From: Firmicutes bacterium HGW-Firmicutes-12
GTDB taxonomy: Bacteria; Bacillota; Peptococcia; DRI-13; PHAD01
Direction: 5' to 3'
Assembly (NCBI GenBank): GCA_002841595.1
Contig: PHAD01000002.1
Span: forward strand, 1 to 46,160
DNA length: 46,160 nucleotides
Below are positions 7,393 through 25,928 of the stretch, in pieces; within the stretch, counting starts at the first letter, position 1; each line of letters opens with the position of its first letter. Both the position numbers and the translations under genes were made by a program. The notes under the pieces are model-generated. The model was given only the letters and a program-made list of their open reading frames with translations. It was not told the DNA's origin and made no database searches.

Positions 7393-10300
7393 TTGCCTAA
7401 AATGTATCCCCTAACTCACCCTCAAATGCGTATCTGGTATGTTGAAAAGACTTTTCCTGGTACCAGTGTCGCTAATATTGCTGCCACCGTCAGAATAAAA
7501 GAACGTATTGACTATATTGCCTTAGAAAAAGCCCTTAATCATTTCATCAAAATTAACGATTCTATGCGCACTCGCATAATCGAGCAAGGTACTACCCCCA
7601 AGCAGTTTTTTTCTCCATATGAAGAATCCAGTATGGAATTATATGATTTTAGCGGACAACCTGTCGAAGCCCTTTATGAATGGGATACTAAACTCTCCCG
7701 TATTTCTATGCCTTTTATTGACTCACCACTATTCTATTTTGTACTATTTAAATTAAATGATTTTGACGGAGGTTTCTTCTGCAAACTACATCACTTAATT
7801 ACAGATGCCTGGTCAGAGATGTTAATAGTTTCCCAGGTTATGAATGCGTACAGGTCATTTTGCGAGGACCGCGAACCTGAACAAACCTCAAATTATTCTT
7901 ATATCGATTATATTGCGAGAGAACAAAACTACCTACTTTCTGACAGATATCAGAAAGATCAAATATATTGGATAGAACAGTTTACTCCCGTCCCCGAATT
8001 GGTAACATTGCAAACCAAAAAACCTGCCAAAAGAAGTCTTGCAGCAAAACGCAAAACCTTTATTCTTTCAAATGAAGAAGCTGAGCAAATTCGTTTATTT
8101 TGTAAAATAAATGAGGTCACAGTTTTTTCTTTCCTTTTAACCATGCTCACTATATATATTAATCGCTTAACTGGTTCTAATGATGTTGTTCTCGGTACTC
8201 CCGTATTAAACCGTCTCAATTCAAAAGAGAAACAAATGATGGGTATGTTTATTAGCACCGTCCCACTCAGATTTCGTATAGACGAAAATGCTCCATACTT
8301 GGAATATGTATCAAGCATTAATAAGGCGTGGCTTTCCATCCTGCGACACCAACAGTTTCCCTACGATGTACTGCAACGCACTCTAAGAAAGAGTAATACC
8401 GATCTAGAGAACCTCTTTGAAATTACTCTTTCCTATCAAAATGCCAAGGTAACACGAGAAAGCATGCTTTGGGATGCCTCTACGCGCTGGCATTTTTCAG
8501 GATACCAAAATGAACCCTTGGTCATCCATATTAACGATCATGATGATAATGGTGTTCTAATCTTAAATTACGACTATAATACAAGCTGTTTTGCTGATCG
8601 AGAAATTCAATTTATTCATAGCCATTTTAAAAGCTTGCTTGAAGATGCACTCCATAATCCTACTAAACCCATTAAGTCTCTTAGCCTGATTGGCCAGGAT
8701 GAACTCCAGAGAATACAAGCCTTTAATTCAATTAGTTCTGACTATGATAAGAACAAGACATTTGTAGAACTCTTCGAAAGACAGGTTAATTTAACTCCAC
8801 AGGCTCATGCCTTGGTTTTCCACGATATCCCACTCACCTTTGCTGATCTCGAGCTCCAGGCAAATCGCCTCGCATATCACTTACGCAGCTCTGGTGTCAA
8901 GCCTGATAATATAGTAGCTGTAATGCTACCTCGCGGTCATGAACTAATTATTTCCTTGTTAGGTGTCTTAAAATCCGGTGGTGCCTTCTTACCTATAGAC
9001 CCTTCCTATCCTAGTGACCGCATTAAATATATGCTATCTGATAGTACAGCAAAATTTGTTATTACAACTCCCGAGCTTGCGAATAACTTTGCAATAAACC
9101 CTGGGTTGGTTATTCCACCTAACGATAAGCGTATAAATGAGGCCCCCTCATCACGACTGCCCTTAGTCAATAAGCCGGAAGATCTTATTTATATAATATA
9201 CACCTCCGGTTCCACCGGACTTCCTAAGGGTGTCATGGTGAAACATTCAGGGCTTAGTGCATATATACATGCTCTTAATAAGATTATGTATTTTCAAGCT
9301 GGTGAAGCCGTTTTATCCATCTGCACTATTGCCTTTGATATATTTATTTTTGAGGTTTTTCCCTCATTAGTATATGGTATGAAGATAATCCTAGCTGATG
9401 AAAACGAACAAAAAATTCCTTCTTTACAAAAGGAACTAATAACAAACCATAAAATAGTAAAATTCTTGGGGACACCAGTCCGTATGAAGCTACTGTTAGA
9501 TGACCCCGGTAGCCGCGAGAGTCTGGCAAATCTTAAAGAAGTTATGCTTGGTGGTGATATTTTTCCTGTATCATTGCTAAAGCAGATGCAAGAGACCTTA
9601 TCTGCTGAAATATTTAATGGCTACGGTCCAACAGAGACTACCATTGGTGTAACTTTTAAGAATTTAACTCACTCAAATGATATCAATATTGGCCGCCCTA
9701 TCGCTAACACCAAAATTTATATTTTAGATAAACACATGAATCTGGTCCCTATAGGTATACCTGGAGAAATATACATCGGTGGAGATGGCTTAGCCCGTGG
9801 ATATCTGAATAATCCGGAATTAACCTCAGAAAAGTTCATTCCTAACACATTTACTCCAGGCGAATATTTATATCGTACTGGCGACCTCGGTCGTTGGTAT
9901 CCAAAAGGAGAAATTGCCTTTCTAGGACGTATCGACTCACAAGTGAAAATCCACGGACATAGAATTGAGCTAGGAGAGATCGAAAATGCTATCCGTAAAC
10001 ACCCTAATATATCAGACGTCGTTGTACTAGATATCGAAGACCGAGGCAGAAAGGCTCTTTGCGCATACATTGTGCCTTCTAAGGATCAAACACCTGATTT
10101 TCATGTTTTACGAAAAGAATTATATAAAAGATTGCCTAATTTTATGGTTCCCTCTTTTTACATGTTAATAAATACTATTCCCCTGAATTCAAGTGGTAAA
10201 ACAGATAGACGAGCTCTTCCAGCCCCTGACAGTGCAAAATCTCTACATAATAAATTCGAGCCACTAACAGACTCAACAGAGATTAAACTTTCAAATATTT

Positions 10301-11367
10301 GGGAACAAATCCTAGGTCTGTTAGAAATTAATGCCGGTGAGGATTTTTTTGAACTAGGCGGTGATTCTCTTGATGTAGTAAACCTTATTACAGCCATTCA
10401 TTGTGGTTTTGGCGCAGAATTATCAATTAGTGATATTTATGAATTGCCGACATTACGCATGCAAGCAGAAAAAATAAAAGAACTCAAAACTGATGGAACC
10501 GTCTTGACTATATGTCCAAATCTCGTCACATTGCACCATAGCATAGAACCAAGAAAAGTATTTTTTATACACGCGGGTAATGGAGAAATAAACAACTACT
10601 ATGAACTAACTCAACTTCTTAATAGTAATATGTCTTTTTATGGACTACGCTATCTTACTAATAGTGTTGCACCTAATAATGTAACAATACAAGAACTAGC
10701 TAATCTTTATCTACAACAGATACGCACCGTACAACCTCAAGGCCCCTATAATCTTATTGGATGGTGTATCGGTGGTACGATAGCTTTTGAAATAGCCCGA
10801 CAACTTGAAGAATTAGGGGAACAAATTGACTGCCTTTCTCTAATAAATTCTATCTCCCCACGCGTATGGCATGGAGTAACCCCATTTACTCAAGAAACCG
10901 AGCTTAAATTCTTATTAGATATACTGCCGGAACAAGAAAAATATATAAGTACTAACGCTTTAGATATACAAGCACTATGGCAAGATGCAATTAAAGAGCT
11001 CCAATCTATAAGTAATATTGAGCAACTCATACGTACCAAAATTCCCAACGAAGTTGCTGTAAGTATCCCCAACCTTTGTAATACAGACATGCCTACCCTT
11101 ATCAAATATATCAATATTATACGTACTTTGCATGTTGCCCGTGTTTATTACAAACCCTCTACAGCATTAAATACTAAGCTTAGTTTTATCGAGGTTAGTG
11201 CAAATGATGTTATTACTGACAAAAATGCCAACCTAGCAGATTGGCAACGTTTCTGTTCTCATCCCATTAATCGCCTACAAGTACCAGGAGATCACTATTC
11301 GATTTTTGCCGCTCCTAATGTAGTAAAACTCGCTCACCTCCTTAGTTCCTTACTTGGCCGTGAGTAG
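7393..11367 (+). CDS. Single-module non-ribosomal peptide synthetase (C-A-PCP-TE) with atypical thioesterase
   Basis: The 1324-residue protein starts at TTG 7393, 8 bases after AAGGAGG; an ATG at 7402 is too far from that site. Domains: condensation about 5-440 (HHLITDA at 133-139); adenylation about 455-950 with A3 YIIYTSGSTGLPKG at 600-613 and the A10 lysine K936; carrier about 960-1030 with phosphopantetheine serine S992 in GGDSL; thioesterase about 1055-1324. The thioesterase nucleophile position reads GWCIGG (C1125). The residue 27 later, normally Asp, is N1152; the histidine is H1301. My hand alignment gives an adenylation pocket D649 I650 F653 L692 M718 G720 G743 I751 G752 K936, which I do not recognise. 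A condensation domain with no upstream module suggests an acyl donor supplied in trans. First gene of an operon with the kinase and HD-GYP regulator. A TATAAT at 7344-7349 is a possible -10, but no -35 is clear. Confidence 0.95.
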   Translation: MPKMYPLTHPQMRIWYVEKTFPGTSVANIAATVRIKERIDYIALEKALNHFIKINDSMRTRIIEQGTTPKQFFSPYEESSMELYDFSGQPVEALYEWDTKLSRISMPFIDSPLFYFVLFKLNDFDGGFFCKLHHLITDAWSEMLIVSQVMNAYRSFCEDREPEQTSNYSYIDYIAREQNYLLSDRYQKDQIYWIEQFTPVPELVTLQTKKPAKRSLAAKRKTFILSNEEAEQIRLFCKINEVTVFSFLLTMLTIYINRLTGSNDVVLGTPVLNRLNSKEKQMMGMFISTVPLRFRIDENAPYLEYVSSINKAWLSILRHQQFPYDVLQRTLRKSNTDLENLFEITLSYQNAKVTRESMLWDASTRWHFSGYQNEPLVIHINDHDDNGVLILNYDYNTSCFADREIQFIHSHFKSLLEDALHNPTKPIKSLSLIGQDELQRIQAFNSISSDYDKNKTFVELFERQVNLTPQAHALVFHDIPLTFADLELQANRLAYHLRSSGVKPDNIVAVMLPRGHELIISLLGVLKSGGAFLPIDPSYPSDRIKYMLSDSTAKFVITTPELANNFAINPGLVIPPNDKRINEAPSSRLPLVNKPEDLIYIIYTSGSTGLPKGVMVKHSGLSAYIHALNKIMYFQAGEAVLSICTIAFDIFIFEVFPSLVYGMKIILADENEQKIPSLQKELITNHKIVKFLGTPVRMKLLLDDPGSRESLANLKEVMLGGDIFPVSLLKQMQETLSAEIFNGYGPTETTIGVTFKNLTHSNDINIGRPIANTKIYILDKHMNLVPIGIPGEIYIGGDGLARGYLNNPELTSEKFIPNTFTPGEYLYRTGDLGRWYPKGEIAFLGRIDSQVKIHGHRIELGEIENAIRKHPNISDVVVLDIEDRGRKALCAYIVPSKDQTPDFHVLRKELYKRLPNFMVPSFYMLINTIPLNSSGKTDRRALPAPDSAKSLHNKFEPLTDSTEIKLSNIWEQILGLLEINAGEDFFELGGDSLDVVNLITAIHCGFGAELSISDIYELPTLRMQAEKIKELKTDGTVLTICPNLVTLHHSIEPRKVFFIHAGNGEINNYYELTQLLNSNMSFYGLRYLTNSVAPNNVTIQELANLYLQQIRTVQPQGPYNLIGWCIGGTIAFEIARQLEELGEQIDCLSLINSISPRVWHGVTPFTQETELKFLLDILPEQEKYISTNALDIQALWQDAIKELQSISNIEQLIRTKIPNEVAVSIPNLCNTDMPTLIKYINIIRTLHVARVYYKPSTALNTKLSFIEVSANDVITDKNANLADWQRFCSHPINRLQVPGDHYSIFAAPNVVKLAHLLSSLLGRE

Positions 11368-11387
11368 ATCTTTAAGGGAGTATTAAA

Positions 11388-13253
11388 ATGGACTTTTCAT
11401 TTATTCTGTTATGTCTTTCATCATTAATGCTATTTATTCTTTTCGCCTTCTCTTTAAAGATAAGAAGACGCAGCCATCTTTATTATGCTTTTTTAGCAGT
11501 ACTAGTAACTATGCTCTTTTGGACAAACGGTAACATTCTTGCCTGGATAACATATCAACAAACAGGAAAGATAGTAATGGGTTTTGTTAAATTGTGGTAC
11601 ATAGGCAACTGTTACCTACCAGTTTTTCTATACCTAACCGGTATTCTTTTCAAAAAAGATCGCCTTGAGCGGACCTGGCGATGTATTTTTCTATTTCTAC
11701 CTCCAACTATATCTTACCTTACTATCTTAACTAACGAGTTTAACGGCGGCTTATTCTATCGTCAATTCTCATTAATGAACACTGAGGTTATTTTAGGCCC
11801 GGTTTTCTATTTTCACTCAGCAATATCATATTTATATTTAGGCCTTGCCATCTACCATTTGATGACATTTTCTACTCAAACTACCGGACTATTCTCAAGA
11901 CAGTCCCTAATTATTATGACTGCTACACTTATCCCTATTACAGTAAATATTATAACTACTTTGAGATTAATTAATTTGCCCGTATATTATACTTCTATTG
12001 CTTTTTCTATTACTGTTTTTCTGTTCTTTATTTCCATTGTCAAATACCGTTTCCTTAACCTAACCCCTATTGCTATCCAAACTGTGCTTGACAAAATGAG
12101 CGATAGTATTGTTGTCATCAGTGACAACCATATTACATATAGTAACAACCCATTTCTGGAGAAATTTCAATTCAAGACTACCAAATTATATAATCTATTT
12201 GAGCTTTTTAATAGCCATCCTCATTTACAGGTTTTAGGCAACAAACTCGAAAAGAAAATTGAAATCTTGCAAGAGTCCCCAGAAATACATTCTTTTGATC
12301 AAGAGTTATTTCTAAATAACGATGTACACTACTTCCATATCGAAATAACTCCCCTCTATACACCTAATAATAATGTGTTGTGGGGTTTCTTACTTTTTTT
12401 TAAGGATACTACTCAAATTCGTAAAGCCAATGATATTATTCACCGCAATCAAACAATGCTAATAGAACAACAGCATCTCGCCTCCCTCGGACAACTTATC
12501 GGTGGTATTGCCCACAACATGAGAACTCCGATCATGTCTATTTCAGGGGGCTTAGAAGCACTACGTGATCTCGTACATGAATACGAGATCTCTCTTGGAG
12601 ATAATACAGTAACAGAGGATGACCATAGAGAAATTGCCGCGGAAATGATAGAATGGATTAAGAAGACTAAACCTTTTTGCTCTTATATGTCTGATATTAT
12701 TTCAGCTGTAAAGGATCAGGCCGTGCGCTTAAATGAATCATCAATGAGTAAATTTACTGTTACTGAGCTTTTAAAAAGGATAGACCTCTTAATGAAGCAC
12801 GAATTACAGATGGGTCACTGTATCTTACTTATAGATAACCGCATGCCTGAAGAAACAGAGCTCCCTGGTACGATGAATAATATGATTCAGATAATTGGGA
12901 ATATTATTGTTAATGCCATTGAGGCTTATGAAGATACGCAAAGTAAAATTGAGTTAATCGTTGATGAGTGCAACACGATACGTAATAATATTAGAATTTC
13001 CATACGCGATTATGGCCCAGGCTTACCAGAACAGGTGCGAGGAAGAATTTTTAAAGAAATGACTACAACTAAAGGCAAAAAAGGTACAGGACTGGGTCTT
13101 TATTTATCCTATCTTACCATCAAGGGTAAATTCGGCGGAACCATGTGGTTTGATACCGTTACAAATCAGGGAACCACTTTCCATATTTCAATACCCACAA
13201 TACAGGCAAGCACGACGACAGGAGGAAAGTACCATGAGGAAAAAACTGGTTAG
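11388..13253 (+). CDS. Membrane sensor histidine kinase with N-terminal 7TM-type domain and PAS-like region
   Basis: The 621-residue protein has about seven hydrophobic segments in residues 1-222, resembling the 7TM sensor domain found at the N-terminus of some histidine kinases. A PAS-like linker follows (about 230-345). The phosphoacceptor helix has H376 in GIAHNMRTPI. The ATPase domain has its N-box around N505/N509, DYGPGLPE at 541-548 and GTGLGLYLS at 566-574. It would autophosphorylate and pass phosphate to the next gene's receiver. ATG 11388 follows AAGGGAG, 20 bases after the NRPS stop. The C-terminus overlaps the regulator gene by 20 bases, so the two are translationally coupled. A membrane sensor encoded directly after a synthetase suggests it may sense the product; that is inference. 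Confidence 0.93.
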   Translation: MDFSFILLCLSSLMLFILFAFSLKIRRRSHLYYAFLAVLVTMLFWTNGNILAWITYQQTGKIVMGFVKLWYIGNCYLPVFLYLTGILFKKDRLERTWRCIFLFLPPTISYLTILTNEFNGGLFYRQFSLMNTEVILGPVFYFHSAISYLYLGLAIYHLMTFSTQTTGLFSRQSLIIMTATLIPITVNIITTLRLINLPVYYTSIAFSITVFLFFISIVKYRFLNLTPIAIQTVLDKMSDSIVVISDNHITYSNNPFLEKFQFKTTKLYNLFELFNSHPHLQVLGNKLEKKIEILQESPEIHSFDQELFLNNDVHYFHIEITPLYTPNNNVLWGFLLFFKDTTQIRKANDIIHRNQTMLIEQQHLASLGQLIGGIAHNMRTPIMSISGGLEALRDLVHEYEISLGDNTVTEDDHREIAAEMIEWIKKTKPFCSYMSDIISAVKDQAVRLNESSMSKFTVTELLKRIDLLMKHELQMGHCILLIDNRMPEETELPGTMNNMIQIIGNIIVNAIEAYEDTQSKIELIVDECNTIRNNIRISIRDYGPGLPEQVRGRIFKEMTTTKGKKGTGLGLYLSYLTIKGKFGGTMWFDTVTNQGTTFHISIPTIQASTTTGGKYHEEKTG

Positions 13254-14745
13254 TACTGTTCACGATTACAACATACTACTCGTCGACGATGAAATCGGAA
13301 TTATTGATTCAATTGGAACAGTTCTTAAACGTAATGGCTACATGTTTAAAGGGTGTACAAACCCACATGATGCAATCGATGCCGTCCGCAATGAACACTT
13401 TGATTTACTGGTATTAGACTTCTTAATGTATCCAATCCATGGAGATGAGGTAGTTAAGCAAATCCGCAGGTTTAATAAGGAGATCTACATCCTGCTATTA
13501 ACAGGTCATAAAGATCTCGCTCCCCCACTAGAAACCATAAAGCAACTGGATATACAAGGATATTGTGAAAAAAGTGATAATTTTGATCAACTTCTCCTAT
13601 TAATCGAATCTGGTCTAAAATCAATAAATCAAGTGCGGACAATTACTAAGTTCCGTGATGGCCTTAATAAAATACTGCAATCAGTCCCCAGGATATATCA
13701 ACTGCAACCAATAGATTCAATTCTTGAAGAAATCCTAGTTCAAATAATGCCTATTGTAAACAGTACAAATGCCTTTATTCTGGTGGATAACCCCACCGAA
13801 GAGAACAAGGATAACAAAAGTATATTTCGCGGTATCGGAAAATATAAGGCTGATTTGGATTCTTTCTGGCTAATGCTCACTTCCGAGTTTATTACGAATA
13901 TTGGAACAGCTCGTGCAGAAAAGACGAATGTGTTTCACGAGGAAGGTATTATTATCCCGCTTATCAACGAATACCAACATTCTTTAGGGATATTATATGT
14001 GGAGAGTCTAGACCGTGATGACGGTCTAGCTCTACTAGAGATATTTTCCAACCAAGCTGCTTCTTCTGTTAGTAATGCCTTTTTACATTCTCTAGTCAAT
14101 GTTAAGAACGAACAACTAAACAATACCTATATTCAATTAAAACGAAACTACTTAGATACGGTGCAAGCCTTACGCTTAGCTGTTGATGCGAAAGATGTCT
14201 ATACGCGTGGGCACTCTGACCGCGTAGCTTACTATTCCGTCGAGCTGGGTAAATTTATCGGACTTGGCCCTAAGGATTTACAAACACTTAAGCTAAGTGG
14301 GCTTTTCCATGATATAGGTAAGATCGGAACAGCAAATGATCTTCTTCTTAAGAGCGAGAAGCTTTATCCTGAAGAATACGAAGAAATAAAAAAGCATTCT
14401 CTCACTGGAGCACATATCCTCTCTGTAATATCCTTCTTTAAAGATGTCATCCCCATTGTAAGAAGCCATCATGAAAGAATTGACGGAACCGGCTATCCTG
14501 ATGGCCTTAAGGAAGACGATATACCCTACTTAGCAAAAATCATTTCGATTGCTGATGCTTTCGATGCCATGATGTCCGATAGAATGTATCGTTCCCGTTT
14601 AGAACGAGACAATATAAAGAAAGAGCTATTAAGAGGCGTCGGTAAACAGTTTGACTATCACCTAGTCAAGAGTTTTATAGAGATTATGGATAAATTACCC
14701 CCTACAGAAGATATTATAATGGATGATTTATCAATAGAATATTAA
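13234..14745 (+). CDS. Response regulator with receiver, GAF-like and HD-GYP phosphodiesterase domains
   Basis: The 503-residue protein starts at ATG 13234 behind a strong AGGAGG; a longer frame from 13150 only overlaps the kinase. The receiver (about 13-130) has acid pair D18-D19, phosphoacceptor D62, T90 and K113. A GAF-like region spans about 155-290. The HD-GYP domain (about 305-490) has H359-D360 in FHDIGKIG, HHE at 412-414 and DGTGYPDGL at 417-425. All the usual metal and substrate residues I can check are present, so it should be an active phosphodiesterase for cyclic-di-GMP or a related dinucleotide. The neighbouring kinase is the evident partner. The gene ends 4 bases from the convergent thioesterase gene, with no terminator between. 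Confidence 0.94.
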   Translation: MRKKLVSTVHDYNILLVDDEIGIIDSIGTVLKRNGYMFKGCTNPHDAIDAVRNEHFDLLVLDFLMYPIHGDEVVKQIRRFNKEIYILLLTGHKDLAPPLETIKQLDIQGYCEKSDNFDQLLLLIESGLKSINQVRTITKFRDGLNKILQSVPRIYQLQPIDSILEEILVQIMPIVNSTNAFILVDNPTEENKDNKSIFRGIGKYKADLDSFWLMLTSEFITNIGTARAEKTNVFHEEGIIIPLINEYQHSLGILYVESLDRDDGLALLEIFSNQAASSVSNAFLHSLVNVKNEQLNNTYIQLKRNYLDTVQALRLAVDAKDVYTRGHSDRVAYYSVELGKFIGLGPKDLQTLKLSGLFHDIGKIGTANDLLLKSEKLYPEEYEEIKKHSLTGAHILSVISFFKDVIPIVRSHHERIDGTGYPDGLKEDDIPYLAKIISIADAFDAMMSDRMYRSRLERDNIKKELLRGVGKQFDYHLVKSFIEIMDKLPPTEDIIMDDLSIEY

Positions 14746-14749
14746 GAAT

Positions 14750-15166
14750 TCACTCGAAGTTATGTTGATCTTTTTTTCTATATACCATCCCAATAAAATT
14801 CGCTACAATTACATCTTTGTTGTCATCAAACACATCAACGTTATAACTGGCCAGCTTACTGTTTGCATATATTTCCTTTGCTTCAGCTATTAGTACTTTC
14901 CCTTTAGGTGGTCTAAAATATGTAATACTCACATTAATCCCTACCGCAACTTGTCCATATGAATTTGAAGCTACACCAAAGGCAAAATCAGCTAATGTAA
15001 AAGTAACTCCACCCTGCACTGAATCAATCGCGTTTAAATGATTATCACATATTTCTAATTTGGCAAGCGCATACCCCGACCCAACTTCTATGAGTTTTAT
15101 ACCTATAGATGCAGCAAACCGATCCTTTTTAAAATACTCCATCATTTGTTGTTGTTCTTTAGTCAT
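14750..15166 (-). CDS. PaaI-type hotdog-fold thioesterase
   Basis: The 138-residue protein starts at ATG 15166, chosen because AAGGAGG sits 5 bases upstream; the upstream GTG at 15184 lies before that site. It has the hotdog fold pattern of acyl-CoA/acyl-carrier thioesterases: a central HLNAIDSVQGGVTFTLADFAFG stretch (HxxxxxxxxGG type) and a following strand GINVSITYFRPP. Substrates of this family are acyl or aryl CoA or carrier thioesters. It follows the ABC permease gene with almost no gap and is convergent with the NRPS operon. A role in editing mis-loaded carrier domain or supplying acyl groups is possible but only inferred from position. Confidence 0.88.
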   Translation of the reverse strand: MTKEQQQMMEYFKKDRFAASIGIKLIEVGSGYALAKLEICDNHLNAIDSVQGGVTFTLADFAFGVASNSYGQVAVGINVSITYFRPPKGKVLIAEAKEIYANSKLASYNVDVFDDNKDVIVANFIGMVYRKKDQHNFE

Positions 15167-15183
15167 AGTCTCCTCCTTATCCA

Positions 15184-15975
15184 CTAATAAATTAGTCTTC
15201 GTTTTAGCTTCTTAACTGCTAAATAGCCAAAAAACAAAATAAAAACAGCTATATAAAGCAAATCTAAAAACAGTTCTATTTTTAAACCTCCGGGCACACA
15301 AAACGCTCGGGATATTCTAACCACATGAGTTAGTGGAAGCATTTCCGCAAAATACCTCAGAGCTGCAGGAAGATTATCTATGGGAAACACTACTCCGGAA
15401 AAGAAAAACATCGGTGACAGTAAGCCAGTAAAGTAAAAATTAAAGTGGTTAATATTATTTACGGCAGATGTAATAAACATTGATATTGCTGCAAACATTA
15501 CCCCACATAGAAAACCGGCCCCAGCCGCCATAATACTTAGAGGGTACGTTATAATACCTGTTAACCAACCCACGATAAGAACGGCAAATGCAAAGAAAAA
15601 GCCTTTTGTTCCAGCAAAAAGTATCTCTCCAATTATAAGGTCGTCTGTGGAAATGGGAGCTCCCAGTATCCCATCATAAACCTTATCAAATTCTAACCGA
15701 ATAAAAGTGCCGAAGGTGCATTCATACGCTGCGGTAAACATTGCAGTAGTTACGATAAGACCACTTGCCAAAAACAAAACGTAATTCATTCCCTCAAAAT
15801 CCTCTAAATAGCTTCCTAAACCTATCCCCAAAGCAGTCAAAAGAATCAACGGTTCTAGGAAGGGAGTAATCGTATTGCTAAAAAAATTGGCATTATATAC
15901 CCTCACATGACGGTACCAAACACTACCAACACGTTTCCACCACGGGGGAACTTGATAAGCTTTATTGCAGTTCAT
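15184..15975 (-). CDS. ABC-2 type exporter permease (NodJ/DrrB-like)
   Basis: The 263-residue membrane protein has about six hydrophobic segments and the ABC-2 transporter pattern, with late LSPMFFFSGVVFPIDNLPAAL (about 185-205) followed by LPLTHVVRISR, typical of the NodJ/DrrB subfamily. The partner ATPase gene overlaps its start by 14 bases. Such two-gene exporters move small lipophilic molecules, drugs or polysaccharide out of the cell. The substrate is not shown by the sequence. Its position across from a synthetase operon makes export of that product one option. Confidence 0.9.
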   Translation of the reverse strand: MNCNKAYQVPPWWKRVGSVWYRHVRVYNANFFSNTITPFLEPLILLTALGIGLGSYLEDFEGMNYVLFLASGLIVTTAMFTAAYECTFGTFIRLEFDKVYDGILGAPISTDDLIIGEILFAGTKGFFFAFAVLIVGWLTGIITYPLSIMAAGAGFLCGVMFAAISMFITSAVNNINHFNFYFTGLLSPMFFFSGVVFPIDNLPAALRYFAEMLPLTHVVRISRAFCVPGGLKIELFLDLLYIAVFILFFGYLAVKKLKRRLIY

Positions 15976-16897
15976 TTAGACTCCTCCCCGTAACCTTTAA
16001 GAATAAATCCTCCAGGTTGGCTGGACGAATATGATAATCATGTTCTGGTAATTGATCTCCTAAAACTGAAAGCGCTACAGCCTCATTACTATATATAAAT
16101 ACAGTGTCCTGAAAACACTCATATCTAAGGCCGTATTCAGTACAGTATGATTGGTAATCTCTAGTCCCTCGTTGGGCAGAATGAATTTCCATAACATATT
16201 TCTCTATACTACCTGCTAATAATTCTCTTGGAGGTCCCTCCAATATTTTTTTACCCTTGTCCATTATAATGATCCTATTGCAGATCTGAAAAGCCTCTTC
16301 CATATAGTGAGTTGATAAGAGAATAGTAACCCCTTTTTCTTGCAATTCCCGTATCTTATTCCAGATAAGATGCCTAACCTGAGGATCAAGACCAGTAGTG
16401 GGTTCATCCAATATCAATAAACGGGGGTTGTTAATAAGTGCTCTAGCAATAGTGAGCCGGCGCTGCATCCCCCCTGATAACTCCTGCACACGGGCCTTAG
16501 CTTTATCCTGCAATTCCATGAAAGATAGCAATTCTTCAATTCTTGTCCGGGCTAACTGGGCAGATATACCATAGAATTTAGCATATATTGCTAGATTATC
16601 TTTGACATTAAGTTCACTGTCAAGATTGTCTTGTTGGGGTACAATCCCTGCTAAAGCCTTTATTTTAAGTGCATCCTTTCTCGGATGAAAACCAAAAATA
16701 CTAATGTCTGTATCCTGACATTCATCAGGTACAGATACTCCATAAATTGTTTTCATGGTTGTACTTTTTCCAGCCCCGTTTGGTCCAAGCAGACCAAGAC
16801 ATTCAGTTCTTTTTACCAGAAAATCAAGACTATCTACAGCCTTTATATTGCCGTAAGTTTTATTCAGATTCCTCACAAGTATTTCTACATCATCCAA
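15962..16897 (-). CDS. ABC-2 type exporter ATPase (NodI/DrrA-like)
   Basis: An ATPase of about 311 residues with Walker A GLLGPNGAGKSTT, signature LSGGMQRRLTIARAL, Walker B LLILDEPTTGLDP and a switch histidine in LLSTHYMEEA. The C-terminal 80 residues form the accessory region common in DrrA/NodI proteins. I choose TTG 16897, which follows AAAGGTGAT and places VEILVRNLNKTYG near the N-terminus. A longer ATG frame from 16936 adds 13 residues but has no visible binding site. It is followed by its permease (14-base overlap) and preceded by the ferredoxin gene, so transcription from the 17.2-kb promoter probably covers all four genes. Confidence 0.92.
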   Translation of the reverse strand: MDDVEILVRNLNKTYGNIKAVDSLDFLVKRTECLGLLGPNGAGKSTTMKTIYGVSVPDECQDTDISIFGFHPRKDALKIKALAGIVPQQDNLDSELNVKDNLAIYAKFYGISAQLARTRIEELLSFMELQDKAKARVQELSGGMQRRLTIARALINNPRLLILDEPTTGLDPQVRHLIWNKIRELQEKGVTILLSTHYMEEAFQICNRIIIMDKGKKILEGPPRELLAGSIEKYVMEIHSAQRGTRDYQSYCTEYGLRYECFQDTVFIYSNEAVALSVLGDQLPEHDYHIRPANLEDLFLKVTGRSLNELQ

Positions 16898-16954
16898 CTT
16901 AATATCACCTTTCCAATACTTAACATACTCTATCATAAGAATAGAGAAAGTAGA

Positions 16955-23059: not shown

Positions 23060-23947
23060 CTATGTAAGCCTCTCCAGAATAAAATCAAGGTTTTGCTTTT
23101 GCCCCTCCTCTAGTAACGGCAAAAAAAGATCTCCTTTCTTCTTCAACCTTGCGGATATGTTTAATAACGTATAATCCTCAGGCTTTGCACCTTTCTCTAA
23201 TTCCTGCCATTCAACCGGTACTGCTACCGTAGCTTGGGCAGTAGCTCGAGGGGAGTAGGGAGAGATTATGGTTTTCCCACTCCACATCTGCAAATAATCA
23301 AAATAAACGCGCTGTCCTCGTTTCTTAACCACTCGCTCAATAGTTATCTTATTAGGATATTTGTTAACAAAAAAAATAGCAAAGATATGATTTATTTTTC
23401 TTGCAGTATCATAATCATATTTCTCGTTTACCGGGATATATATCTGCAGACCGGTAGCACCGGACATTTTAACATAGGAATTAACATTTAATTTTTTCAG
23501 TTCTTCATTTATATTGAGCGCTACTTCTGCAGTGTCAGAAAATCTTAGTCCTTCAGCCGGGTCTAGATCAAAAATAATGTCCTTCGGCCTTAATTCATTT
23601 GTATAATAATTAAAAGCCGTATGCAGTTCCAAAGCAGCCTGATTAGCTAGCCATACAAGTGTGGCTGAATCGTTTAGTAATATATAGTTGTTATCATGCC
23701 AAGGATGCGTCTTTATCCATTCCGGAGCATGTTTGGGGGTATTTTTCTGATAGAATGATTTCCCTATATAACCATGGGGATAACGAATGGTCGTAAGTAA
23801 ACGATTGTATGCATGAGGGATAATATATGGGGCAAGCTCTATAATCCTAGTAATATAGTCAATCTTACGTATTCCTAACTCGGGCCATAGTAACTTCTCC
23901 GGATTAGTTATACTTACTTCGTAACCATCTATATAAAGAACCGACAT
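23060..23947 (-). CDS. NHEJ polymerase/primase (LigD polymerase domain, stand-alone)
   Basis: A 295-residue archaeo-eukaryotic primase-type protein equal to the polymerase domain of LigD. Visible features are the N-terminal TNPEKLLWPE motif, YQKNTPKHAPEWI, the metal-binding D127 and D129 in IIFDLDPAEG, and SGATGLQIYIPV. It fills gaps and adds nucleotides at double-strand break ends during non-homologous end joining. Its ATG overlaps the ligase stop codon by one base (TGATG at 23949-23945), so translation is coupled. In many bacteria the two activities are fused in one LigD; here they are separate proteins. Confidence 0.93.
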   Translation of the reverse strand: MSVLYIDGYEVSITNPEKLLWPELGIRKIDYITRIIELAPYIIPHAYNRLLTTIRYPHGYIGKSFYQKNTPKHAPEWIKTHPWHDNNYILLNDSATLVWLANQAALELHTAFNYYTNELRPKDIIFDLDPAEGLRFSDTAEVALNINEELKKLNVNSYVKMSGATGLQIYIPVNEKYDYDTARKINHIFAIFFVNKYPNKITIERVVKKRGQRVYFDYLQMWSGKTIISPYSPRATAQATVAVPVEWQELEKGAKPEDYTLLNISARLKKKGDLFLPLLEEGQKQNLDFILERLT

Positions 23948-24897
23948 CAGACTATGTACTCCTTCCCCACAGCTTCTCTGGGATTTTGCTCACTAAAACC
24001 AATTATCTTAGGATGTCTTAACACCCCACCTTCTGTCCATTCAAGAAATTGCACCCAACAGGTTAGTGCCGGTCTGAGCCATACGGTTTTTGGCTCATTT
24101 GAAACATCTATAAAGGGACTCGTTTCTTGCGTCGTACTGGTCTTATACTTGGTGATATAGTTATATAAATCCAAAATGTTTCCTTGCGATAATCCCAGCG
24201 ACGCTCTTCCCACATATACAAGGTTTTCATCATTGTAGATACCTAAAAGCAGGGAATTAGGATATTTGTTTTTTAATATAATACCTCCAATAATCGCGAG
24301 CATTTTTTTATTTATTTTTATTTTTAGCCAATCATTGTGCTTTTTACCCCCTTGGTATAGGCTGGATAATCGCTTAGAGACAATTCCTTCCATACTTCGC
24401 TCTTTCATCATCTCATATAGTTTCTGTCCGTCCAGGTAATCATCTGTTAGAAAGATATGCTCATCAGGTTTAAGAATATCTCGTAATAACGAGCTTCTTT
24501 CGGAGAGTGGAAGACCACGAAGATCTTGGTCATTACAGTAGAGTAGGTCAAAGATAATATAGTTAACGGGGTAGTTGCGACTATAGTAACCTAGCTTAGT
24601 TTGTGTACGAATTCTCTCGCGAGTGAGCACTCGGTTAAAAGAAGGAACCCCACTATCACCCAAAACAACCAATTCACCATCTAAAATCGCCTGTTTTGCG
24701 TTTAAAAGCCTTAAACATTGTTGTACCTCAGGATAGAAATCGGTTCGTTCTCTTCCCTTCTTGGTAAAAACTCTAAGCCTGTTCTGTTCAATATAGCTTA
24801 AACCACGAATTCCATCCCATTTAACCTGATGTATCCACTCCCTTTCATTCATTACTATTAGATTTTGGATTGGTTCCATCGGTTGTAATAAATTCAT
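23947..24897 (-). CDS. ATP-dependent DNA ligase of NHEJ (LigD ligase domain, stand-alone)
   Basis: A 316-residue ATP-dependent ligase. Motif I is KWDGIR with adenylated K26; DGELVVLGDSG is motif III-like, MEGIVSKRLSS is motif IV and WLKIKI is motif V. An OB-fold region follows, with HPKIIGFSEQNPREAVG near the end. There is no fused polymerase or phosphoesterase domain. It seals breaks held by Ku. It lies between ku and the polymerase gene in a three-gene repair operon, with a 65-base gap to ku. Confidence 0.94.
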   Translation of the reverse strand: MNLLQPMEPIQNLIVMNEREWIHQVKWDGIRGLSYIEQNRLRVFTKKGRERTDFYPEVQQCLRLLNAKQAILDGELVVLGDSGVPSFNRVLTRERIRTQTKLGYYSRNYPVNYIIFDLLYCNDQDLRGLPLSERSSLLRDILKPDEHIFLTDDYLDGQKLYEMMKERSMEGIVSKRLSSLYQGGKKHNDWLKIKINKKMLAIIGGIILKNKYPNSLLLGIYNDENLVYVGRASLGLSQGNILDLYNYITKYKTSTTQETSPFIDVSNEPKTVWLRPALTCWVQFLEWTEGGVLRHPKIIGFSEQNPREAVGKEYIV

Positions 24898-24962
24898 TTT
24901 GTCTCACCTGCTACTACACTCGTTTTTTGCTACTTTAATTTTCTTGTCATTAAAATATAAAT

Positions 24963-25808
24963 TTAAACAGTAGCCGTTTTCTTTTCCTTATCAGACTTGG
25001 CTGTTTTCTTGCCCGATTTCTTCGTAGCTACCCCTTTTTTCTGAGATTCTTTAAGGCTAGCTTGTAGTGCTTCCATGAGATCAATCACATTTCTCTGAGG
25101 CACAACTTTTGAAACCTCAATTTCCTTACCGGCAATTTTTTTATTAATTAGTTCATTCAATGCTTCACGATAATTATCTTTGTATTTTTCCGGCTCAAAC
25201 GAAGCTGTTAGTGATTCGATGAGTTTGGTGGCTATGTCCAATTCCTTCTCATTGATTTCAACTTTTTCCGGTAATCCGGGAACTTGACTGACAGGCCTTA
25301 CTTCATCCGGATAAAAAATAGTTTCCATAACTAATATTTCATTGCTTACCCTGAGACAGGCTAGAGATTGTTTGTTTCGTATGGTTATTCTGGCAATCGC
25401 AATTTTACCAGTATCAAGCATAGCTTTTTCTAACAGACTATACGCTTTACCACCGTTCTCCTGCGGAGAAAGATAATAGGTTTTTTCAAAATAGATAGGA
25501 TCGATTTCGGATAGATTTACAAAATCCAGGATTTCAATGTTTCTACCATTTACCTCAGATTTAAGACTATTTAATTCATTTTCATCGACTATAATAAAAT
25601 GACTTGGTTCGTATTCATACCCTCTGACAATCTCTTCATCCTTAATCTCTTTATCACAGACAGGACATACTTTCTGATATTTAATAGGGCTCATGCACTC
25701 TTTATGAAGATAACGAAAACGTACATCTTTTTCTTCGGTAGCCGCGAACATCTTAATAGGGATATTAACAAGCCCAAAGCTGATAGAACCTTTCCACATC
25801 GTATGCAT
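24963..25808 (-). CDS. ku: Ku protein, DNA end-binding factor of NHEJ
   Basis: A 281-residue bacterial Ku homodimer subunit. The start MHTMWKGSISFGLVNIPIK is the conserved Ku N-terminus; ATG 25808 has AAAGG at suitable distance, whereas the ATG three codons earlier does not. A CPVC motif with a nearby cysteine follows at about residues 34-53. The C-terminal tail (about 258-281) is rich in lysine, as in Ku proteins whose tails help DNA threading and ligase recruitment. It is the first gene of the ku-ligase-polymerase operon and diverges from the MBL-fold gene. Confidence 0.96.
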   Translation of the reverse strand: MHTMWKGSISFGLVNIPIKMFAATEEKDVRFRYLHKECMSPIKYQKVCPVCDKEIKDEEIVRGYEYEPSHFIIVDENELNSLKSEVNGRNIEILDFVNLSEIDPIYFEKTYYLSPQENGGKAYSLLEKAMLDTGKIAIARITIRNKQSLACLRVSNEILVMETIFYPDEVRPVSQVPGLPEKVEINEKELDIATKLIESLTASFEPEKYKDNYREALNELINKKIAGKEIEVSKVVPQRNVIDLMEALQASLKESQKKGVATKKSGKKTAKSDKEKKTATV

Positions 25809-25928
25809 GATTTTCATCCTTTCAGTGGTTTTAACATTATTCTTTGTTGTCTACGTTGAGATAATGCATCATTATCTTCATTGTCTTGATATAATAGTAC
25901 TTATAATGCTACTAGGAGGTAAATTCAT

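Follow-up and report, generated by a model that had tools for sequence, protein, structure and literature searches.

Most thioesterase (TE) domains of nonribosomal peptide synthetases (NRPSs) carry their catalytic aspartate after strand beta6, at position I (PMC11298585, PMC6668435). Among NRPS TEs with a characterised structure, a cysteine nucleophile combined with the lack of an Asp at this position has been reported for ObiF1 and SulM only; in both, as in type II TEs such as RifR, the Asp is found after beta7, at position II (PMC11298585, PMC6668435). The catalytic residues of ObiF1 are Cys1146, Asp1254 and His1284, with Gly1173 at position I (Cys+27), and Asp and His are 30 residues apart, the same distance as between Asp2926 and His2956 of SulM (PMC6668435, PMC11298585). 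In both enzymes, the combination of Cys and Asp at position II accompanies protection from hydrolysis, and a Cys-to-Ser exchange makes both of them hydrolytic (PMC11298585, PMC6668435).

The DNA analysed here (the window; 46,160 nucleotides of contig PHAD01000002.1 from Firmicutes bacterium HGW-Firmicutes-12) encodes on its plus strand a single-module NRPS of 1324 aa with the domain order C-A-T-TE (7393..11367), which starts with TTG downstream of the ribosome-binding site AAGGAGGAAACC. Its condensation domain (7399..8712; aa 3-440) contains the motif HHLITDA at aa 133, the adenylation (AMP-binding) domain (8773..10200; aa 461-936) has the 10-residue code DIFLMGGIGK, and the thiolation (carrier, PP-binding) domain (10288..10470; aa 966-1026) has GGDSL at aa 989. 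The C-terminal TE (10555..11328; aa 1055-1312), a PF00975 domain (E 1.5e-24), follows the T domain, as in AB3403/EntF-like type I TEs, which it also resembles by sequence, and it is the sole Pfam Thioesterase match in the whole genome. As a single ACPS-family phosphopantetheinyl transferase (AcpS-like, 133-aa frame; G000:C182:8073-8417, L062) was found in this genome, it may prime the NRPS carrier domain. Two orthologous TEs were available for comparison (n=3 with the window): L013 from G001, the only other compared genome from the same family, and L014 from G188, a distant member of the phylum. The window NRPS is 63% identical to the G001 orthologue, which in turn shares 59% identity with that of G188; for the TE, identity to the window is 51% (L013) and 43% (L014) in the orthologue alignment.

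The sequence-only reading of this DNA had described a Cys-Asn-His triad. The three residues are indeed where it had placed them, as confirmed from codons and motifs: Cys1125 (TGT, 10765..10767) as the nucleophile within GWCIGG, Asn1152 (AAT, 10846..10848) at Cys+27, i.e., at position I, where Asp is usual, and His1301 (CAC, 11293..11295) within GDHYSI, the catalytic histidine. All three are invariant among the three orthologues, and the Cys nucleophile and the loss of the usual Asp thus both hold. Because two independent orthologues keep Cys, Asn and His exactly, chance, sequencing error and decay are excluded as the source of the pattern. However, the triad itself was probably misassigned. 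A further residue, Asp1272 (11206..11208), located in the motif SANDVITD (ANDVI(T/A)D across the set), is equally invariant, as is D1276, and is separated from His1301 by 29 residues. When profiles of the three orthologous TEs and of two ObiF-type TEs encoded at related loci (L019 and L026) were aligned with each other, D1272 was paired with the Asp of the latter (probability 95%, E 1.8e-8), and the Asp of the L019 TE falls on Asp1254 of ObiF1 in a phmmer alignment. The earlier reading had allowed for another acidic residue in the triad and had named D1146. While alignment does point to such an acid, it would be D1272; D1146 is ruled out, since the residue at this position varies (D, R or S) among the orthologues.

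Given the invariance of D1272, its alignment with the ObiF-type Asp, the matching spacing and the lack of conservation of D1146, the triad is most likely Cys1125-His1301-Asp1272, with Asn1152 only marking the vacated site. In this arrangement, whose geometry we infer, Cys1125 would receive the N-acyl-aminoacyl chain carried by the T domain; His1301 would serve as base, supported by Asp1272 from its place at position II, the loop that follows beta7. It is worth noting that AB3403 also has an Asp in the region aligned to D1272 (KAKDEQED), yet its triad uses the Asp at position I; an acid in this region therefore need not be catalytic. In papain-type cysteine proteases, the His is positioned by an Asn, within an established Cys-His-Asn catalytic set. 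A true Cys-Asn-His triad, in which Asn1152 would position His1301 in the papain manner and D1272 would be structural, would fit with the invariance of the Asn, which could otherwise have drifted, and with the lesser need of a Cys nucleophile, compared to Ser, for an acidic partner. We nevertheless regard it as unlikely, considering that D1272 shows the same invariance and is matched in the alignment to the catalytic Asp of ObiF-type TEs, and that position I is Gly in ObiF1 and Ala/Gly in L019/L026, i.e., dispensable when an Asp occupies position II. AlphaFold models of the TE were of low confidence (pLDDT 34 from a single sequence, 46 from two sequences); in them, the Cys directly follows a strand and precedes a helix, and N1152 likewise comes directly behind a strand, while D1272 lies within a low-confidence part. 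Foldseek searches with the low-confidence model ranked AB3403, NocB and EntF first, with TM-scores below 0.4.

The same three proteins are found by sequence, with AB3403 (4zxh) as the best PDB match of the window TE (E 2e-19), accompanied by NocB and EntF. ObiF is missing among its PDB matches at E 0.01, whereas the TE of L019 matches ObiF1 (6n8e) at E 2.5e-31. Since the TE sequence groups with AB3403, NocB and EntF and not with ObiF, a member of the AB3403/EntF lineage would have reached the ObiF/SulM-like arrangement independently. Among 15 related type I TEs, 12 of them from plasmid records (cyanobacteria, proteobacteria and an actinomycete) and 3 from Bacillota, position I is Asp without exception, regardless of whether the nucleophile is Ser or Cys (the latter in L066, L069 and L072). 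Compared to these 15, Asn at position I is confined to the window TE family. No close member of this family beyond G188 was found among 398 sampled genomes of the phylum, no TE relatives were found on the viral contigs scanned, and the plasmid TEs among the matches listed share at most 31% identity.

The comparison with TEs that form beta-lactones or beta-lactams, to which the sequence-only reading had pointed, proved apt, as ObiF1 and SulM share with the window TE the Cys nucleophile and the lack of an Asp at position I (PMC11298585, PMC6668435) and, by alignment, the Asp at position II. The spacing is similar as well, with 27 residues from the nucleophile to position I in both ObiF1 and the window TE, and 30 (ObiF1, SulM) versus 29 residues (window) from the Asp at position II to the His. 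However, the TEs of ObiF and SulM cluster with type II TEs and have a GHC.GN elbow, whereas that of the AB3403/EntF-like window TE reads GWCIGG; furthermore, the window NRPS lacks a C-terminal MbtH-like domain, and its A domain is, judging from the code, not one for a beta-hydroxy amino acid. AB3403 from Acinetobacter baumannii shares the C-A-T-TE order and a GWCxGG elbow with Cys, but it keeps the Asp at position I (MIDTRAP), where the window TE has Asn.

With respect to the substrate, look-up of A-domain codes and the literature yielded no amino-acid assignment for DIFLMGGIGK, which is identical in the NRPS of L007 and is not a known Ser/Thr code. The single module would link one amino acid to an acyl donor; release by the TE would yield a small N-acyl amino acid or else its internal ester. 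The donor may well be fatty acyl, as 7c1h-group structures, the third-ranked PDB match of the window condensation domain, presumably represent fatty-acyl starter domains. Ordinary hydrolysis to a plain N-acyl amino acid, with either triad and without special chemistry, has about an even chance in our estimation: as the code is no known Ser/Thr code, a beta-hydroxyl for a four-membered ring is not expected, and Cys occurs together with the normal Asp in related cyanobacterial and A. baumannii NRPS TEs, so that Cys alone predicts nothing. On the other hand, Cys with Asp at position II goes along with hydrolysis protection in ObiF1/SulM, where Cys-to-Ser exchanges turn the enzymes hydrolytic, and NRPSs from sister loci, whose release domains are reductases or an ObiF-type TE, would release something other than simple acids.

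Strained-ring release, which the sequence-only reading had raised alongside aminolysis as a possible outcome, is not supported for this protein. With an A-domain code that matches no known Ser/Thr code, the sequence lends no support to a beta-lactone product, and a tailoring hydroxylase is absent from the conserved set of three genes described below. While the triad pattern is that of ObiF1/SulM, and at related loci (L019, L026) the Thr code DFWNIGMVHK does go together with a true ObiF-family TE (6n8e, E 2.5e-31 for L019), the window TE falls outside the ObiF clade, with ObiF not among its PDB matches, and we consider ObiF-like ring closure by this protein quite improbable. The window TE presents the Asp-II pattern in a different TE lineage and with a substrate that is probably unable to form a beta-lactone, which makes it testable whether Cys with Asp at position II favors ring closure or resists hydrolysis, or is just one of two workable triads.

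The NRPS gene is followed after 20 bp by a gene for a sensor histidine kinase with a HisKA_7TM N-terminal region, PAS, HisKA and HATPase_c domains (11388..13253, plus strand), the end of which is overlapped by the start of a response regulator gene (13234..14745, plus strand). The regulator comprises a receiver, DUF3369 and an HD-GYP domain with intact HDIGK and HHERIDGTGYP motifs and is, on the basis of this intact HD-GYP motif, a putative c-di-GMP-degrading enzyme. Downstream, the minus strand carries convergent ABC transporter and PaaI-type thioesterase ORFs (14750-16936), which were not counted as parts of the set. Elsewhere in the window (23060-25817), judging from the translations only, ORFs for a Ku-like protein, a LigD-type polymerase and an ATP-dependent ligase make up what looks like an NHEJ set, with LigD divided between two separate genes.

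An orthologue of the regulator was identified in 15 of the 398 phylum genomes, and none on plasmids. In addition to the window, 12 loci (L013-L015, L017-L022, L024, L026, L027) have NRPS, kinase and regulator intact and in this order, and the conserved trio spans distant families of the phylum (window 7393-14745, L013-L027). The same set is present in L016 (L016:9943-20000), broken by two 480-aa ORFs, one in the NRPS and one in the kinase, which are probably the same insertion element, and in L023 the contig edge falls inside the kinase. L025 (114-6189) encodes the regulator with a HAMP-type kinase and no NRPS; what it has instead is one gene of the ThiF family and another, coding for 574 aa, that weakly matches PilZ. 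HisKA_7TM is present in 11 of 14 kinases and HAMP in 3; in L015 and L017, a HAMP-type kinase adjoins the NRPS. Two additional MAG contigs were found via the NRPS alone, with L007 adjoining a kinase and L008 a regulator. Distances between the C domains track those of the kinase (Mantel r 0.87) and of the regulator (r 0.81; 0/2000 permutations each), a correlation that shows joint inheritance and linkage, not binding of the product by the kinase. Synthase, sensor and HD-GYP regulator are all that is conserved; no exporter or other transport, immunity/resistance or tailoring gene belongs to the conserved set. A literature search, with most subscription papers outside its scope, so that absence is not proof, found no published set of NRPS, kinase and HD-GYP regulator, which is thus apparently undescribed so far.

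Within the set, the release domain of the NRPS is exchanged. The Cys/Asn/Asp-II TE is found in the window, L013 and L014. L019 (3147-7043) and L026 (347-7381) have an ObiF-family TE with the elbow GHCVGN or GHCVGS, and because it is joined to the Thr code mentioned above, they are predicted producers of N-acyl (Ser-)Thr beta-lactones. A reductase of the NAD_binding_4 type ends the NRPSs of L015 (Pfam-tested) as well as of L016, L017, L018, L022, L024 and L027 (by likeness); the A-domain code is of the Ser type in L018, L022 and L024 and of the Gly type in L015. Another Rossmann domain, found in L007 (7950-12293), L020 (12805-17139) and L021 (3137-7477), has no Pfam match and is weakly like acyl-ACP reductase and PigE; it matches PDB 9e4s/9e4x at 1e-86 to 1e-89, entries titled 'amino acid adenylation domain protein', for which the literature search found no publication. 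This is apparently a little-described NRPS release domain, and in L007 it replaces the TE behind the very code found in the window.

Most likely, the NRPS product is a signal read by the neighbouring kinase, which would pass phosphate to the HD-GYP regulator and thereby change c-di-GMP. A signal circuit is the simplest reading, because conserved tailoring, transport and resistance genes are lacking and a sensor and an HD-GYP enzyme are adjacent. Taken as a whole, the explanation, from a Cys-His-Asp-II TE via a small N-acyl product and its perception by the kinase to HD-GYP and c-di-GMP, seems to us reasonably probable. Against a pairing of kinase and ligand, kinase and regulator occur without an NRPS in L025, and the NRPS occurs beside a HAMP-type kinase in L015/L017. 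There is a considerable, albeit less than even, likelihood that the two-component genes simply regulate or accompany the NRPS and that its product, instead of being a kinase ligand, is secreted as an inhibitor, a metal chelator or a toxin. Linkage alone does not demonstrate a ligand-receptor pair, and aldehydes and beta-lactones, as expected from the sister enzymes, are classical enzyme inhibitors; obafluorin, for instance, is reported as an inhibitor of ThrRS (PMC9880928). However, an inhibitor or toxin would be at odds with a conserved set that holds only synthase, sensor and HD-GYP regulator and no exporter, immunity or tailoring gene, and with an output that is a c-di-GMP enzyme and not a DNA-binding operon regulator.

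Most known signalling in Bacillota relies on ribosomal peptides or AI-2. If the signal reading is correct, the NRPS-kinase-HD-GYP operon would constitute a chemically new signalling class with a receptor candidate for each molecule. More tentatively, it could be a widespread, undescribed mode of Bacillota signalling, consisting of a mostly one-module NRPS that makes an N-acyl amino acid derivative, an interchangeable release domain, a 7TM kinase and an HD-GYP phosphodiesterase. The end group would then be set by the Cys TE, by the ObiF-type TE (beta-lactone, from Thr) or by the reductase (aldehyde, from Ser/Gly), and release-domain swapping could give rise to lineage-specific dialects. The trio could also guide genome mining for N-acyl beta-lactones and aldehydes.

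Aureusimine-type pyrazinones, valdiazen from Burkholderia and leudiazen are likewise NRPS products used or proposed as signals; their NRPSs are not known to be encoded in one operon with a dedicated kinase and an HD-GYP regulator. In layout, the trio resembles RpfF-RpfC-RpfG of the DSF quorum-sensing system, where the synthase gene likewise adjoins genes for a multi-TM histidine kinase and an HD-GYP regulator. We infer that the trio, in which synthase, TM kinase and HD-GYP regulator are encoded together and co-inherited, is an Rpf-like signal circuit. It would differ from Rpf in that the synthase is an NRPS instead of the crotonase-fold DSF synthase RpfF, in the HisKA_7TM and PAS domains of the kinase, in the DUF3369 of the regulator and in its Bacillota-type hosts.
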